From: Devosia submarina
GTDB taxonomy: Bacteria; Pseudomonadota; Alphaproteobacteria; Rhizobiales; Devosiaceae
Direction: 5' to 3'
DNA length: 64,000 bases
Assembly: GCF_003056345.1 (NCBI RefSeq)
Contig: NZ_PYWB01000003.1
Coordinates: 248,001 to 312,000, forward strand
The translations under genes were made by a program, and so were the position numbers. Under the pieces are notes generated by a model. That model made no database searches. It worked only from the letters and a program-made list of their open reading frames with translations, and was not told where the DNA came from. This document shows positions 21,025 to 36,310 of the stretch, piece after piece; position 1 is the stretch's first letter; each line of letters starts with the position of its first letter.

Positions 21025-21579
21025 TTACATGCTCTGCGGCCCACGTGAAATAGCGGCCAGGCCGGTGCGGACCACTTCAACCAGGCCGAGCGGCTGCATC
21101 AGGGTGATGAAGCTGTCGATCTTGGCAGGCTTGCCGGTCACCTCAAACACAAAGCTTTCGACCGTCGCATCCACGATCTGCGCGCGGAAAGCATCGGCAA
21201 GGCGCAGGGTCTCGGCGCGGTGATCGCCTGAGCCCGCGACCTTGATCAGGGCCAGTTCGCGCTCGAGCGAAGCGCCTTCCGCGGTTAGATCATGCACCTT
21301 GTGAACAGGCACAAGCCGCTCGAGCTGCAGCTTGATCTGCACCAGCACCTTGGGCGTGGCAGTGACAACAACAGTGATGCGACTAAGTCGGCGGCCGTGT
21401 TCGGTCTCGCTGACGGTCAGGCTCTCGATATTGTAGCCGCGAGCAGAGAAAAGACCCACGACGCGGGCGAGGATGCCCGGTTCGTTGTCGACGAGCACCG
21501 AAAGCGTGTGCCGCTCGATTTCCTGGGTTTCGCTAGTGATGAAATAGGCCGAGCCGGTCGGCTGCAGATGTGCGTTCAT
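21025..21579 (-). CDS. ilvH: Acetolactate synthase small (regulatory) subunit
   Basis: Regulatory subunit of acetohydroxyacid synthase. The 184 residues hold an N-terminal ACT domain (HTLSVLVDNEPGILARVVGLFSARGYNIESLTVSETE, the valine-sensing part) and the C-terminal ALS_ss_C domain ending GLVEVVRTGLAAISRGP. Length is typical of the IlvH/IlvN single-ACT form. It starts 21 bases after ilvI and precedes pdxJ by 34 bases. Confidence 0.96.
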   Translation of the reverse strand: MNAHLQPTGSAYFITSETQEIERHTLSVLVDNEPGILARVVGLFSARGYNIESLTVSETEHGRRLSRITVVVTATPKVLVQIKLQLERLVPVHKVHDLTAEGASLERELALIKVAGSGDHRAETLRLADAFRAQIVDATVESFVFEVTGKPAKIDSFITLMQPLGLVEVVRTGLAAISRGPQSM

Positions 21580-21600: not shown

Positions 21601-23370
21601 TTAAACCAGCGCCCTTCCCTTTTCATCGATGATGGAGCCGATATTGGCGGTATCGGGCAGGATGATTTCGTTGTGTGGCTTGCCCGAGGGGATCATGGGG
21701 AGGCAGTTCTCATCTTTCTCCACGATCACGTCGAACAGCACCGGGCCGTCATAGTCGAGCATCTCGGCAATGGCCGCATCGAGTTCTGCGGGGTTCTCGC
21801 AGCGGATTCCCTTGCCCCCATAAGCCTCGGCGAGCTTAACGAAATCAGGCAGCGACTCCGAATAGGAGTGGGCGTAGCGCGAGCCATGCAGCAGGTCCTG
21901 CCACTGGCGAACCATGCCCATCCGCTCATTGTTGAGGATGAAGATCTTGATCGGCAGTCGGTACTGCACGGCCGTCGAGAGCTCCTGCATGGTCATCTGC
22001 ACACTGGCTTCGCCGGCGATATCAATGACCAGCGCATCGGGGTGCGCCACCTGTACGCCCACGGCGGCAGGCAAGCCATAGCCCATGGTGCCCAGGCCAC
22101 CTGAGGTCATCCAGCGATTGGGCTTATCGAAGTGGAAGTGCTGCGCAGCCCACATCTGGTGCTGCCCCACTTCGGTGGTGATGAAGACGTCCTTGCCTTG
22201 CTTGCGAGTGGCCTCATAGAGCCGCTCGATTGCATATTGCGGCTTGATCACGGTGTCGGAGTTCTTGTAGCCGAGCGAATTGACCGCACGCCATGTTGCG
22301 ATCTCTGCCCACCATGGTGCAATGGCTTCCGTGCGGGGCTGGTTGGTCTTGCTCCGCCACACACGCACCATTTCGGCCAGCACACGACCACAATCGCCAA
22401 CGATTGGCACATCCACGCGCACCACCTTGTTGATCGACGACGGATCGATATCGACATGGATCTTGCGGCTATTGGGCGAAAAGGCGTCGACGCGGCCGGT
22501 GATGCGGTCATCGAAGCGCGCACCGATATTGATCATCACATCGCAATCATGCATCGCAAGATTGGCTTCGTAGGTGCCGTGCATGCCCAGCATGCCCATC
22601 CATTGCGGATGAGAGGCGGGGAAGGCGCCAAGTCCCATCAGGGTTGATGTGACCGGAAAGCCAGTTAGTTCAGCCAGCTCGCGCAGGTGCTCGGACGCTT
22701 CCGTGCCGGCATTGATCACACCTCCTCCGGTATAAAAAATGGGCCGCTCGGCCTTGAGCATAAGATCCACTGCAGCTTCGATCGCCGCCGCGTCGCCATC
22801 GACCTGCGGGCGATAGCTCTGGTGGCGCAGGGTTACCGAGTCCGGCTTGTAGTATTCGCCCACCGCGAACTGAACGTCTTTGGGGATGTCGATCACCACC
22901 GGGCCTGGACGGCCAGTTGTCGCGATCAGGAAGGCCTCGTGCATGATACGCGGTAGGTCTTCCACGCGCTTAACGAGGTAATTGTACTTTGTGCAGGAGC
23001 GGGTAATACCGACCGTGTCGCATTCCTGGAAGGCGTCCGAGCCGATCAATGTAGTGGGCACCTGAGCCGTGATGCAGACCAGGGGGATGGAGTCCATTAG
23101 GGCATCGGTAAGACCGGTAACCGCATTGGTGGCGCCGGGGCCCGAGGTCACCAGGACCACGCCAGGCTTGCCAGTGGAGCGGGCATAGCCCTCGGCCATA
23201 TGCGTCGCGCCCTGCTCGTGCCGAACAAGAATATGCTGCACGAAATCCTGCTGGAACATCGCGTCATAGATCGGCAAGGCCGCGCCGCCCGGATAGCCAA
23301 AGATGTGCTCTACGCCCTGATCGGTCAGCGCTTGGATCACCATTTCCGCGCCGGTCATCTTCTCGGCCAT
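21601..23370 (-). CDS. ilvI: Acetolactate synthase large (catalytic) subunit
   Basis: Thiamine-diphosphate enzyme that condenses two pyruvates (or pyruvate with 2-oxobutyrate), the first common step of branched-chain amino acid synthesis. Features of the 589-residue protein: GADMVI-like N-terminus with YPGGAALPIYDA, the catalytic glutamate in LVRHEQGATHMAEGYARSTG, the FAD/beta domain around residues 190-350 (SHPQWMGMLGMHGTYEANLAM), and the ThDP motif GEASVQMTMQELSTAVQYRLPIKIFILNN. In the usual ThDP motif the first residues are GDG; here it reads AGEAS, as in many alphaproteobacterial AHAS enzymes (GDAS/GEAS). It is the first structural gene behind the leader attenuator. Confidence 0.97.
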   Translation of the reverse strand: MAEKMTGAEMVIQALTDQGVEHIFGYPGGAALPIYDAMFQQDFVQHILVRHEQGATHMAEGYARSTGKPGVVLVTSGPGATNAVTGLTDALMDSIPLVCITAQVPTTLIGSDAFQECDTVGITRSCTKYNYLVKRVEDLPRIMHEAFLIATTGRPGPVVIDIPKDVQFAVGEYYKPDSVTLRHQSYRPQVDGDAAAIEAAVDLMLKAERPIFYTGGGVINAGTEASEHLRELAELTGFPVTSTLMGLGAFPASHPQWMGMLGMHGTYEANLAMHDCDVMINIGARFDDRITGRVDAFSPNSRKIHVDIDPSSINKVVRVDVPIVGDCGRVLAEMVRVWRSKTNQPRTEAIAPWWAEIATWRAVNSLGYKNSDTVIKPQYAIERLYEATRKQGKDVFITTEVGQHQMWAAQHFHFDKPNRWMTSGGLGTMGYGLPAAVGVQVAHPDALVIDIAGEASVQMTMQELSTAVQYRLPIKIFILNNERMGMVRQWQDLLHGSRYAHSYSESLPDFVKLAEAYGGKGIRCENPAELDAAIAEMLDYDGPVLFDVIVEKDENCLPMIPSGKPHNEIILPDTANIGSIIDEKGRALV

Positions 23371-23436
23371 TGTTCTAGTCCTTCCCTAGGTCTTCCTGTT
23401 CGGGGCCCAATCTCGACGAAGCGAAAACCGGGCAAT

Positions 23437-23460
23437 AAAAAAGGCCCCGTTCGGGACCTT
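23437..23460 (-). terminator. Attenuator terminator of the ilvI-ilvH operon
   Basis: On the minus strand AAGGTCCC pairs with GGGGCCTT (one wobble) around a GAAC loop and is followed at once by six Ts. It lies between the leader peptide stop and ilvI, 67 bases before the ilvI start, so it must be read through for the operon to be expressed. This is the expected place for an attenuator. Confidence 0.85.
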
Positions 23461-23491
23461 GTTTTCGGCGCACCAGCTATCGCGCGGGATC

Positions 23492-23542
23492 TTATCCCAC
23501 GGTGCCGATGCGCCTACGTACTACGAGAATGAGTGCCCGCAC
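23492..23542 (-). CDS. ilv leader peptide (attenuator control peptide)
   Basis: A 16-codon frame reading MRALILVVRRRIGTVG from a GTG at 23542, preceded by GGAG at seven bases and closed by TAA. Six of the first thirteen residues after the start are Leu, Ile or Val, with the run LILVV, matching the products of the downstream pathway. A sigma-70-like promoter is just upstream and a terminator hairpin just downstream. Together these show classical ribosome-mediated transcription attenuation by charged tRNA-Leu/Ile/Val. The stop falls just before a GGGAT-AAG-ATCCC hairpin, which can take part in the alternative RNA structure. Confidence 0.82.
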   Translation of the reverse strand: MRALILVVRRRIGTVG

Positions 23543-23574
23543 AGGACCGCTCCAAACCAAAATTATCGGCCGCA

Positions 23575-23604
23575 TTGATAGGAGCAAGCAGGTTCAGGTG
23601 TCAA
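23575..23604 (-). promoter_or_regulatory. Sigma-70-type promoter of the ilv leader
   Basis: On the minus strand a consensus -35 TTGACA (23599-23604) and -10 TATCAA (23575-23580) are separated by 18 bases. Initiation about seven bases further gives a leader of about 26 bases before the leader-peptide GTG. Confidence 0.75.
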
Positions 23605-23955: not shown

Positions 23956-25458
23956 ATGTCCAAGAGTGCCCTCGACAAGGACCTGCAGCGTGTAGCCGGG
24001 CTGGAATCGGCAACGCATGATTTGGCCCGCACGCTTGCGGCCCCCGGCATAGCACTGGTCTTCCTGCTGCTTGCAGCTGTGTGGGCAAGCTTCGTCGTGG
24101 CCGACGGTCCGATGAGCTTCTTGGTGGTTATTGCTGCGGCGATAGCTGGCTACATGGCGCTCAATGTCGGCGCCAATGACGTCGCGAACAATATGGGCCC
24201 AGCGGTTGGCTCCAAGGCGCTGACCATGGGCGGTGCCCTGGTGATCGCTGCCATCTTCGAAGCCGCCGGCGCAATCCTCGCCGGGGGCGATGTGGTGAAC
24301 ACGGTCGCGCGCGATCTGCTCACCAGCGACAGCATCGAGGCGAGCACTTTCGTGCTGCTGATGATGGCCGCGCTGCTGGCCTCGGCGCTTTGGGTCAATC
24401 TCGCCACCTATATCGGTGCGCCGGTATCAACCACTCATGCGGTGGTCGGCGGTGTAGTGGGGGCCGGTGTCGCCGCCGCAGGCTGGACAAGTGTCGCCTG
24501 GACGACCGTGGGGACAATCGCTGCAAGCTGGGTCATTTCACCTGTGCTGGGCGGATTGGCGGCCGCCCTGCTGCTCTCATTAATCAAGCAAACCATCACG
24601 GATCGCATCGACAAGGTCTCGGCGGCACGCGTCTGGGTACCAGTCCTGGTGGCGGGCATGACTGGTGTTTTCGCCATGTACATGGCCACCAAGGGGTTCA
24701 GCCGCATTTGGAAGCCCGGAATGCCTGTGGTGATCGCGCTTGGCATCGGCTTCACTGCCCTTGGCTGGATTGGCGCGATGCCGCTGGTGCGCCGGCAGTC
24801 TATGGGAATGGAGAACCGCAAGAAGCATGTGGCGGCGCTGTTTCGCCTGCCCCTCGTCGTCGCGGCGGCCCTCTTGAGCTTTGCCCATGGTGCCAACGAC
24901 GTTGCCAATGCGGTAGGCCCTTTTGCAGCCATTGTGACGACGCTCCAGTCGGGCGACGCGTCGAGCTCCAATATCGCCCTGCCCTTCTGGGTGCTGGCGA
25001 TTGGCGCTATCGGCATTTCGCTTGGCCTCTGGCTATTCGGACCGCGCCTGATCCGCACGGTGGGCGAACAGATCACCAAGCTCAACGAAATCCGGGCCTA
25101 TTGTGTAGCGCTCTCAGCCGCGATCACAGTGCTGGCGGCATCGGCCCTGGGCCTGCCGGTTTCCTCCACCCACATCGCCGTGGGCGGTATTTTCGGCGTT
25201 GGCTTTCTGCGTGAATATTATTCCCGCAAGGACCTCGACTTCAGCGCCGTTCCTATTCACGCCAAGCATGTGGACCCGGCAACCCTGAACGCGACGCCCG
25301 AGGATGCCCTTTCCAAAGAGCGCAAGACTGAACGGCGCAAGCTGGTGCGCCGTCAGCATGTGACAAGCATTGCGGCTGCCTGGATTATAACGGTGCCGGC
25401 GTCGGCCGCCTTGGCCGCTGTGCTGTTCTGGCTGCTGCGCCTGACGATTGGGGGTTAA
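23956..25458 (+). CDS. pit: Inorganic phosphate transporter, PiT family
   Basis: A 500-residue PiT permease that takes up (metal-)phosphate with a cation. The two inverted-repeat signatures are present: LNVGANDVANNMGPAVGSKALT near residue 70 and SFAHGANDVANAVGPFAAI near residue 315. About eleven membrane segments are visible, with a basic cytosolic loop between repeats (RRQSMGMENRKKHVAALF) and a charged stretch (DALSKERKTERRKLVRRQ) before the last helix. No PhoU-like DUF47 partner is adjacent. Its stop overlaps the convergent Nudix gene stop by four bases. Confidence 0.95.
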   Translation: MSKSALDKDLQRVAGLESATHDLARTLAAPGIALVFLLLAAVWASFVVADGPMSFLVVIAAAIAGYMALNVGANDVANNMGPAVGSKALTMGGALVIAAIFEAAGAILAGGDVVNTVARDLLTSDSIEASTFVLLMMAALLASALWVNLATYIGAPVSTTHAVVGGVVGAGVAAAGWTSVAWTTVGTIAASWVISPVLGGLAAALLLSLIKQTITDRIDKVSAARVWVPVLVAGMTGVFAMYMATKGFSRIWKPGMPVVIALGIGFTALGWIGAMPLVRRQSMGMENRKKHVAALFRLPLVVAAALLSFAHGANDVANAVGPFAAIVTTLQSGDASSSNIALPFWVLAIGAIGISLGLWLFGPRLIRTVGEQITKLNEIRAYCVALSAAITVLAASALGLPVSSTHIAVGGIFGVGFLREYYSRKDLDFSAVPIHAKHVDPATLNATPEDALSKERKTERRKLVRRQHVTSIAAAWIITVPASAALAAVLFWLLRLTIGG

Positions 25459-25919
25459 CTGCCCGAGCGAAGGCTCGCCTGCAGCAGCACGGCAATACGC
25501 GACAAGGCCCGGTCATTGAGCAGGCGGCGCGCCTCGGGCAACACGGCCCAGTGCCGCAGGCGCTGATCCATTTCCTTCCAGACGTCCAGCTGTGTCTCGA
25601 CCCGCAGCGGATAAAGATCGACATCCACAAGGCTTGATCCATCGACGCTGGCACTCGAGCGGTAGCTGCCGATAGGGTCCACAGCAATCTGGCCAGATAC
25701 GCCGGCCTCTTCCATCGCCTCCACGGCAGCACTTTCCCACGGCGTCATGCCTGGCTCGATATCGCCCTTGGGGAATATCCAGCGGCCCGTACGGCGCGAG
25801 GTAATCAGCAGGAACACAACACGGCCATCGATTACCGAATAGGGCAGCGCACCCGACTGGCGCATCCCTGGTGTCGTTTCCACCTTCGGGCTCCAATTGC
25901 TCAGAAATCCGCGCAGCAT
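25455..25919 (-). CDS. Nudix hydrolase, diadenosine/diphosphoinositol-polyphosphate type
   Basis: A 154-residue Nudix protein starting MLRGFLSNWSPK, with GGGAG five bases before the ATG. The Nudix helix is in FPKGDIEPGMTPWESAAVEAMEEAGVSG; the metal-binding EAMEEAG is intact, while the earlier Glu and Arg of the general consensus are M and V. The shape PKG..E.GMTPWEAA..EA.EEAGV is common in the rhizobial DIPP/Ap4A-like subgroup, so the change is not evidence of inactivity. Residues SGALPYSVIDGRVVFLLITSRRTGRWIFPKG form the substrate-side strands. It overlaps the end of the convergent pit gene by four bases. Confidence 0.88.
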   Translation of the reverse strand: MLRGFLSNWSPKVETTPGMRQSGALPYSVIDGRVVFLLITSRRTGRWIFPKGDIEPGMTPWESAAVEAMEEAGVSGQIAVDPIGSYRSSASVDGSSLVDVDLYPLRVETQLDVWKEMDQRLRHWAVLPEARRLLNDRALSRIAVLLQASLRSGS

Positions 25920-26004
25920 GTGGGCTCCCGCTGTAAAAGGAAATTGGTCTTCGCACACCAAAGGCCGAGCTGTCGAGCCGGCATCGCGATGTGCGCAGGG
26001 CAAC

Positions 26005-26029
26005 AAAAAAGGGCCCCAAGGGGCCCTTT
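26005..26029 (-). terminator. Intrinsic terminator of the cold-shock gene
   Basis: Minus-strand AAAGGGCCCC-TTG-GGGCCC stem followed by TTTTTTG, about 20 bases beyond the stop of the cold-shock gene. A strong, canonical signal. Confidence 0.85.
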
Positions 26030-26050: not shown

Positions 26051-26266
26051 TTAGCTCAGCAGGGTCAGGTTCGTAGCGGAAACCTTGCCGTCACGGCCGG
26101 TTTCGAGTTCGTAGGTCACCTTGTCACCTTCATAGAGGCCCTGCAGGCCCGAACGCTGAACGGCAGAAATGTGCACGAAAGCGTCCTTTTCACCGTTTTC
26201 TGGCGAGATGAAGCCGAAGCCCTTGGTGGTGTTGAAGAATTTGACGGTACCGGTGATGGTTGCCAT
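26051..26266 (-). CDS. Cold-shock protein, CspA family
   Basis: A 71-residue single-stranded nucleic-acid chaperone of the OB fold. The RNP1 motif KGFGFI and RNP2 motif DAFVHIS are intact, in MATITGTVKFFNTTKGFGFISPE and KDAFVHISAVQRSGL. Rhizobiales carry several such genes, with roles ranging from cold adaptation to general RNA unfolding; which this is cannot be told. A leader of over 130 bases precedes it, as usual for csp genes, and a strong terminator follows. Confidence 0.96.
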   Translation of the reverse strand: MATITGTVKFFNTTKGFGFISPENGEKDAFVHISAVQRSGLQGLYEGDKVTYELETGRDGKVSATNLTLLS

Positions 26267-35827: not shown

Positions 35828-35926
35828 GGGGCAAGCTGTAATTCGATTCGGCAGGCGGTGAAGCAAATCCCTGCGGTTCCACCACAAGTTCTGCTGATTT
35901 ATGGGCGCTTTTTGTGCCCGAGCCAT

Positions 35927-35954
35927 TTGCATCCGCGCGCGCGGCCCTTATATA
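35927..35954 (+). promoter_or_regulatory. Promoter of the tmRNA gene
   Basis: TTGCAT (35927-35932) and TATATA (35949-35954) with a 16-base spacer, directly before GGGAGGGCTCGCAAGAGC. It is the best promoter match in this gap and faces the tmRNA. Confidence 0.65.
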
Positions 35955-35959
35955 GGGAG

Positions 35960-36310
35960 GGCTCGCAAGAGCTATGGCAATAAACTGTCATCGTAATAAA
36001 CCTTTCGGACCCGGGGGCAGTACCCGGCGCCTCCACCATTTTACCGGCCTGGCCGGGCAGCCAATGGGGGCGAAACAGGATCGACGAGGGCGTAAAGGGT
36101 GTGCTTTTGCTCGGTGAGGTACCACCGTTATCGGTCCGAAACTTATAGTTGCAAATGACAACCATAAGGCTCCAGTCGCTCTCGCTGCGTAAGCAGCGCT
36201 AGCTCTGGGAATCTAAGTCCTCCAGCCCTAGCCGGCTGACAGGCGGGGTCCGCAGGCACCTGGCAACAGAAGCCTGCACCTTCTCTTCAATCTTGCTTGC
36301 TTGGCCCCTT
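35960..36310 (+). ncRNA. ssrA: tmRNA, circularly permuted two-piece (alphaproteobacterial) form
   Basis: The order is permuted. The acceptor half comes first, with a T-arm (CCCGG...CCCGG) and the 3' strand CGCCTCC ending in ACCA at 36038. A spacer of 27 bases follows, then the 5' strand GGGGGCG at 36066. The two strands pair over seven bases with a G-U at the third pair, the alanine-identity feature. After CGAAACAGGATCGACG comes the tag frame, resume codon GCA at 36151 to TAA at 36192. It encodes ANDNHKAPVALAA, so with the tRNA alanine the tag is AANDNHKAPVALAA. The ends (promoter and about 36310) are estimates. This RNA rescues stalled ribosomes; the SspB adaptor gene follows directly. Confidence 0.9.

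Follow-up and report, generated by a model that had tools for sequence, protein, structure and literature searches.

The window analysed here, a stretch of 64,000 nucleotides from Devosia submarina, carries on its minus strand the genes for the large and small subunits of acetolactate synthase, namely, ilvI (21601..23370; NCBIfam NF006581, 1110 bits, and TIGR00118, 805 bits) and ilvH (21025..21579; TIGR00119, 181 bits, and NF008864, 223 bits). Upstream of both genes, and on the same strand, lies a leader region running from 23604 down to 23431. It opens with a -35 hexamer TTGACA (23599..23604) and a -10 hexamer TATCAA (23575..23580), separated by a spacer of 18 bases, followed by a ribosome site GGAG (23550..23553), a segment reading CGGTCCT between this site and the start codon (23543..23549), and a leader peptide gene of 16 codons (23492..23542). 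The latter starts with GTG at 23542, codes for MRALILVVRRRIGTVG, ends with a TAA stop, and harbours a run of five control codons, CTC ATT CTC GTA GTA (Leu Ile Leu Val Val; 23519..23533). The promoter, the ribosome site, and the GTG-initiated frame with its LILVV run had all been proposed in the original prediction, and each was located on the minus strand.

The end of the peptide gene is joined to the sequence 3' of it by a stem, referred to as 1:2. According to sequence and fold, its outer part comprises 11 base pairs, 23514-23504 with 23477-23467, the first strand, GGCGCATCGGC (23504..23514), lying within codons 10-13, and the second being GCTGGTGCGCC (23467..23477). Its inner part is a hairpin, CGTGGGAT-AAG-ATCCCGCG (23483..23501), which spans the stop codon. 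The GGGAT-AAG-ATCCC hairpin previously noticed over the stop is present, but it represents only the tip of this longer stem. Further downstream, sequence and fold reveal an intrinsic terminator, AAGGTCCC-GAAC-GGGGCCTTTTTT (23437..23460), in which the hairpin AAGGTCCC-GAAC-GGGGCCTT occupies 23460-23441 and a T6 run 23442-23437. The predicted GC stem and T6 were hence found upstream of ilvI and in the right order, although the wording 'just before ilvI' was generous, as 66 bases lie between T6 and the gene. The calculated fold of the 154-base leader reaches -63.5 kcal/mol (z -2.35), and 2 of 200 shuffled sequences folded better. Among the features of a classical attenuator, the window leader displays a frame with a ribosome site and cognate codons, an intrinsic terminator, and a stem 1:2 over the end of the frame.

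The T run is directly followed by ATTGCC (23431..23436), a tail present in 54 of 56 Devosia leaders and frequent in distant leaders and in those of transporter genes (see below). A similar ending, T6-GTTGCC, was noticed at a terminator after a cold-shock-like gene (26010-25999, minus strand), and NTTG followed none of the 42 runs of at least five T without a hairpin in the window. Strong terminators here may generally carry such a tail. By eye, a NUDIX-like frame (25455-26006) and a cold-shock-like frame (26051-26266) were recognised on the minus strand, with a GC hairpin and T6 between them. On the plus strand, the window also carries a transporter-like gene of 500 amino acids (23956-25458), which matches sulfate permease and PitA models well under their cut-offs, and a tmRNA of the alphaproteobacterial permuted type (35922-36280; RF01849, 273.8 bits).

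Conservation of the leader within and beyond Devosia

The search covered 61 Devosia genomes, of which 56 provided a usable region upstream of ilvI and the other five gave none. A fixed rule, calling for a short frame with a Leu/Ile/Val run and then a terminator, recognised a leader in all 56 regions, compared with 11 of 1120 dinucleotide shuffles. Applied to 80 named ilvI loci, which are the best 80 of 595 matches and not a random sample, the same rule recognised 58, compared with 6 of 1600 shuffles. This count is a lower bound because the rule misses real leaders, such as that of Caulobacter (L056), which was recognised by eye. The terminator is found in 56 of the 56 genus leaders, as is the ribosome site in the form of GGAG, GAGG, or AGGA, while a sigma-70-like promoter pair matches a loose pattern in 55. 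In 35 of the 56, the segment preceding the start codon reads AGGTCCC, identical to the first arm of the terminator. As a side observation, this segment, together with the codons after GTG, resembles a diverged second copy of the terminator palindrome.

A lack of conservation, in the frame or in the Leu/Ile/Val codons it contains, had been named beforehand as evidence against the attenuator, and the opposite was found. The frame is unbroken in 56 of 56 leaders, with 16 codons in 55 of them and 17 in one. Among the 55 leaders of equal length, ATT at codon 5 and CTC at codon 6 are retained in every case, each of the two GTA codons (7 and 8) in 54, and CTC at codon 4 in 47. GTA accounts for 5% of Val codons in 35 long open reading frames of the window, picked mechanically by length and GC3, and is rare by this measure. 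Of 19 four-fold sites in codons 6-60 of ilvI itself, none is invariant across 53 Devosia genes. The contrast between these variable sites and the constraint at codon level indicates that the codons, besides the residues, are under selection, as would be expected for codons read as a signal.

Bases of the Devosia leaders are also conserved beyond what the stems require. In comparative terms, the frame, its codons, stem 1:2 (whose covariation is described below), and the terminator show the marks of selection. The window locus (L001) matches the leader model R1 over its full length with 40.6 bits, and it shares with the ilvIH leaders of Alphaproteobacteria the same place, codon run, stem, and terminator, which identifies it as a member of that family. 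A short frame and an ordinary terminator could also have come to stand before ilvI by chance, and a frame rich in branched-chain codons followed by a terminator does arise in the 11 of 1120 shuffles mentioned above. Set against the recurrence throughout the genus and at 58 of 80 loci beyond it, the constraint on codons, and the compensatory changes, an accidental origin has a negligible probability.

Known attenuators and the Rfam family Atu_C8

The original prediction had noted that attenuation of this kind is reported in some Alphaproteobacteria, and two sources bear this out. PMC2573895 lists an 'ilvIH cis regulatory' element in S. meliloti, with reference to Vitreschak et al. 2004, and an ilv leader attenuator is described for Caulobacter in PMC4117421, citing Tarleton et al. 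1994. The Devosia leader resembles these alphaproteobacterial ilvIH and ilvBN attenuators in its position 5' of acetolactate synthase genes, its terminator, and its run of branched-chain codons, the last being stated for Caulobacter. It differs, as far as the descriptions for S. meliloti and Caulobacter extend, in its ribosome site and GTG-initiated frame of 16 codons, and in that a strong 2:3 antiterminator was not found in Devosia. With the E. coli ilvL, leuL, thrL, and trpL leaders and the Agrobacterium trpL leader, it has in common a cognate codon run and an intrinsic terminator before the gene. The uORF of Corynebacterium ilvB-II (PMC11109978), compared by description alone, is likewise an Ile/Leu/Val-rich frame 5' of an acetolactate synthase gene with a terminator stem, but its motif, according to that description, has an antiterminator sequence within P1 and is found in Corynebacterium only. 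The type of control before ilvIH is already known, and on the features compared here the Devosia leader is a well-supported member of it.

A search of Rfam returned RF02502, Atu_C8, a family designated 'Rhizobiales sRNA', as the sole credible match, the other two having E-values above 1. The window leader scores 49.8 bits over the full model length, against a gathering score of 50. RF02502 was found above cut-off 5' of ilvI in 13 of 20 ilvI loci scanned, with 121 bits in Agrobacterium and 119 bits in Sinorhizobium, and in 56 of the 61 Devosia genomes. Every match above cut-off whose neighbour was checked is an ilvI leader or a leader of a transporter gene. Atu_C8 spans the leader but is classed in Rfam as an sRNA gene and not as an attenuator; judging from these positions, it turns out to be the ilvI leader family. 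Our literature search found no published statement equating the two, and Vitreschak 2004 and Tarleton 1994 may include part of the present findings.

The Rfam listing also lends some weight to another reading, in which the terminated leader is released as a small RNA whose main role is exerted in trans. There is a precedent in S. meliloti, where rnTrpL, an RNA derived from the trp attenuator, acts in trans, and a trans-acting RNA would suit base conservation that exceeds the needs of the stems. Such an RNA would, however, need neither a codon run for branched-chain amino acids, nor a U-tract terminator, nor the position in which the checked copies are found, directly 5' of ilvI or of one transporter clade and on the same strand. 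We consider a main role in trans unlikely and retain attenuation of ilvIH as the preferred reading.

Covariation of stem 1:2 and switching of the terminator

Compensatory changes in the stem had been named in the original prediction as a check, and stem 1:2 displays such two-sided changes in the wider leader set. In a structure alignment of 90 leaders (88 distinct, five of them Devosia ilvI leaders) on a covariance model, pairing reaches 99.6% in the outer helix of stem 1:2 (helix 2) and 98.1% in the inner helix (helix 3). Two-sided changes affect 6 of 9 pairs in the outer and 6 of 6 in the inner helix, or 12 of 15 for the two together. An alignment fitted to a model favours the structure of that model, and slid controls gave far lower pairing, at 44-54%. 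In a scan of all column pairs, performed on 57 sequences below 85% identity, the inner and outer helices ranked first and second, with summed covariation of 4.06 and 2.73, respectively. The third-ranked helix (1.48) joins the control codons to the U tract, and its changes are mostly one-sided. A consensus-fold proposal in which the control codons pair with the U tract and ATTGC, 86% paired, was rejected, as the real energies are no better than those of permuted pairs, the fraction of permutations as low being 0.57 and 0.83. At the last Val codon, the third base tracks the form of the tail, GTG occurring with ATG in 17 of 20 cases and GTA with TTG in 91 of 106, an association that may merely mirror descent.

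With regard to function, we hold it very probable, from the features assembled above, that ilvIH is controlled by transcription attenuation, with a ribosome reading the leader. Judging from the -10 box, transcription would start about 25 bases 5' of the peptide gene; the polymerase would copy this gene and stem 1:2 and would then meet the strong intrinsic terminator. When branched-chain aminoacyl-tRNAs are ample, the ribosome would complete the 16 codons and transcription would stop at the terminator. Under a shortage of charged tRNA, chiefly of the tRNA-Val that reads the two rare GTA codons, stalling would occur at codons 7-8, the ribosome would mask the first arm of stem 1:2, and read-through into ilvIH would increase. 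Stalling earlier, at the first Leu codon or at the Ile codon, would leave stem 1:2 wholly untouched. The sensing of codons and its direction are both inferred from the arrangement of these parts.

Classical attenuators depend on a stalled ribosome that leaves strand 2 free to pair with strand 3 while strand 4 is still to be made. We calculated how much free energy pairing with upstream sequence contributes to strand 3, with the ribosome placed either at the last control codon or at the stop, using an equilibrium model and an assumed footprint; an antiterminator was accepted at -6 kcal/mol or lower in the stalled state, provided that this was at least 4 kcal/mol below the value at the stop. The E. 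coli thrL, leuL, trpL, and ilvL leaders gave -13.9, -8.4, -9.3, and -10.8 kcal/mol at stall and -2.5, -1.7, -0.1, and -0.3 kcal/mol at the stop, respectively, and trpL of Agrobacterium, which belongs to the same order as the window, gave -10.7 and -0.1 kcal/mol. (The trp leaders L273 and L275 stayed outside this control set, their terminators having been missed by the terminator rule.) The window leader yielded -2.7 kcal/mol at stall and -4.0 at the stop, and the medians of the 56 Devosia leaders were -1.6 and -3.5 kcal/mol, respectively. Folding with the ribosome edge at varied positions in the leader, and with the five positive controls in place, revealed no strong 2:3 pairing in Devosia, and 0 of 56 Devosia leaders reached -6 kcal/mol at stall. 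Whereas the E. coli leaders and Agrobacterium trpL possess a 2:3 antiterminator worth -8 to -14 kcal/mol, the Devosia leaders, as modelled here, are without a strong one, a point which is new to us. In this respect, the designation of the window element as a 'complete' attenuator does not hold, and since the trp leader from the same order reveals its antiterminator by the same method, we call the element attenuator-like and keep it out of the classical four-strand class.

Among 58 wider leaders, the medians were -3.3 kcal/mol at stall and -2.6 at the stop. Nine of them reach -6 kcal/mol or lower at stall, and six show the classical contrast (L005, L008, L039, L066, L080, and L082; mostly Rhodobacteraceae, with a Bosea and a Hyphomicrobiales bacterium), leaving 52 of 58 without a strong 2:3 antiterminator in the thermodynamic model. 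For 18 transporter leaders, the group medians lay between 0 and -3.5 kcal/mol at every ribosome edge. For the genus, folding predicts no strong 2:3 antiterminator that could link stalling to antitermination; given an equilibrium model and an assumed footprint, a kinetic, protein-aided, or pseudoknotted switch would still be compatible with these values.

One candidate for the missing strand was the segment before the start codon, which could act as an antiterminator by pairing with strand 4. Indeed, the value predicted for the terminator falls below 0.5 in 37 of the 56 Devosia leaders when no ribosome is present and in 30 of 56 when one occupies the last branched-chain codon. It is, however, also below 0.5 in 47 of 56 with the ribosome at the stop, where termination is wanted, and in the window leader it stands at 1.0 with a stalled ribosome. 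Beyond the genus, the pairing is nearly absent, the terminator of distant relatives forming in nearly every state (Pterm below 0.5 in 0 to 2 of 58). This equilibrium pairing is common in Devosia yet out of step with the logic of control, and the proposal, to which we attach the lowest probability but for that of a chance arrangement, was rejected.

The gap left by the antiterminator also makes room for a different mechanism, in which the stem is a structured sensor for a ligand or a protein, with a three-way junction and, in many Rhizobiales, a GNNA-type tetraloop, the peptide being secondary. A mini-hairpin, GC-GAAA-GC, does adjoin the inner hairpin in the transporter leaders and in many ilvI leaders, but it is not evident in the fold of the window leader, and in 11 of 81 cells the second pair of the mini-hairpin does not hold. 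Moreover, few parts of the leader are as constrained as the peptide frame with its rare control codons, which makes a sensor of this kind very unlikely in our estimation, and we keep to ribosome-read attenuation in what follows. In six Rhodobacteraceae leaders (L072, L074, L077, L079, L080, and L082), the stop codon (UAA or UGA) was seen by eye to lie in a small hairpin, with a loop GUAA or GUGA of GNRA form.

Leaders of the same family before Bcr/CflA transporter genes

In 16 of the 61 Devosia genomes, a second Atu_C8 match above cut-off was obtained, often stronger than the one before ilvI. All 16 precede one gene, coding for an MFS transporter of the Bcr/CflA family (TIGR00710, 211-217 bits with a cut-off of 200.9, for three proteins tested, one of them from a sister genus). 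Orthologs of this transporter with at least 62% identity are present in 19 Devosia genomes: 16 carry the leader, none was seen in two, and one locus is truncated at a contig end but retains a recognisable terminator. Three further Devosia genomes with a relative of 42-52% identity carry a different, Rhodobacter-type leader, and no leader was seen before seven more distant Bcr/CflA genes; absence at transporter genes was called by visual inspection of some 250 bases. The genome of the window itself gave no transporter match at the cut-off used. Leaders of this family 5' of the Bcr/CflA clade were recorded at loci L143-L158, L162, L164, L166, L199-L201, L211, L214, L259, L270, L279, L281-L289, and L301.

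A model built on the transporter leaders matched 33 of 297 genomes of the order to which the window belongs, and the 30 loci returned consisted of 26 ilvI and 4 transporter leaders. In one other family, it matched 151 of 199 genomes; among the loci checked there (27 new and 6 fetched), an ilvI or ilvI-like gene follows the leader at 31 and the transporter gene at 2. In another check of 20 leader matches, 17 lay 5' of ilvI and 3 lay 5' of the transporter. The Rhodobacter-type leader was modelled separately (R2), and this model matched 14 of 385 genomes of the class, 4 before ilvI (one family) and 10 before the transporter (nine other families), a split which represents no frequency, as R2 itself derives from 10 leaders of ilvI and 3 of the transporter. 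One sub-threshold match (L159, 30 bits) has neither ilvI nor the transporter beside it. Separately, three Rhizobiaceae-family genomes (L160, L240, and L267) were seen to carry a second, diverged ilvI, about 61-66% identical in the best segment, with a leader of its own. This leader resembles the local transporter leaders, and MKIAMV is found in L160 and L240.

A class-wide search for the transporter in 289 genomes returned 12 proteins with at least 48% identity, of which 7, the query included, have a leader. Two of these seven leaders have a decayed codon run, and five of the genomes were already among the ten of R2. Below 48% identity, 0 of 18 transporters examined by eye across the class has a leader, with 36 further listed places outside this count. 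In a tree of 58 transporters, all 31 leader-bearing proteins fall into one clade of 38 (support 98/97), and 0 of the 20 outside it has a leader. The label requires 6 changes on this tree versus 19.5 when shuffled. The rows were chosen by hand, 31 with and 27 without a leader, and those left out include L144, L146, L148, L150, L155, L156, L201, L183, L203, and L209. The simplest reading would be one ancestral leader followed by several losses.

The leader peptides of the two groups differ in composition. Counting relatives as independent, 36 transporter leader peptides contain 108 Val, 34 Ile, and 16 Leu, and 59 ilvI leader peptides contain 132 Val, 77 Ile, and 78 Leu. By these counts, the transporter leaders appear to lean to valine and to represent a second use of the ilvI leader family, which is new to us. 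A broader proposal can be made, namely, that one valine-leaning attenuator family controls an ancestrally leader-bearing Bcr/CflA clade across Alphaproteobacteria, and that in Devosia the terminator is switched without a classical antiterminator. We give this proposal an even chance of being right.

For ilvIH, the result adds a well-supported case of a predicted control to a group with few experimental tests of it, and the Rfam 'sRNA' Atu_C8 gains a likely function. The antiterminator that is missing here, yet visible in the Agrobacterium trp leader by the same calculation, raises a concrete mechanistic question, that of the structure by which a ribosome on two Val codons would block the terminator. 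With regard to the transporter, its expression would rise when valine-tRNA is short if the leader works as thought and, if this is true, the Bcr/CflA 'drug efflux' proteins would belong to the physiology of branched-chain amino acids. We can speculate that the transporter exports a compound causing valine shortage, for instance, an inhibitor of acetolactate synthase or a valine analogue. For transporters whose name otherwise refers to drug efflux alone, the leader may in this way point to the substrate.
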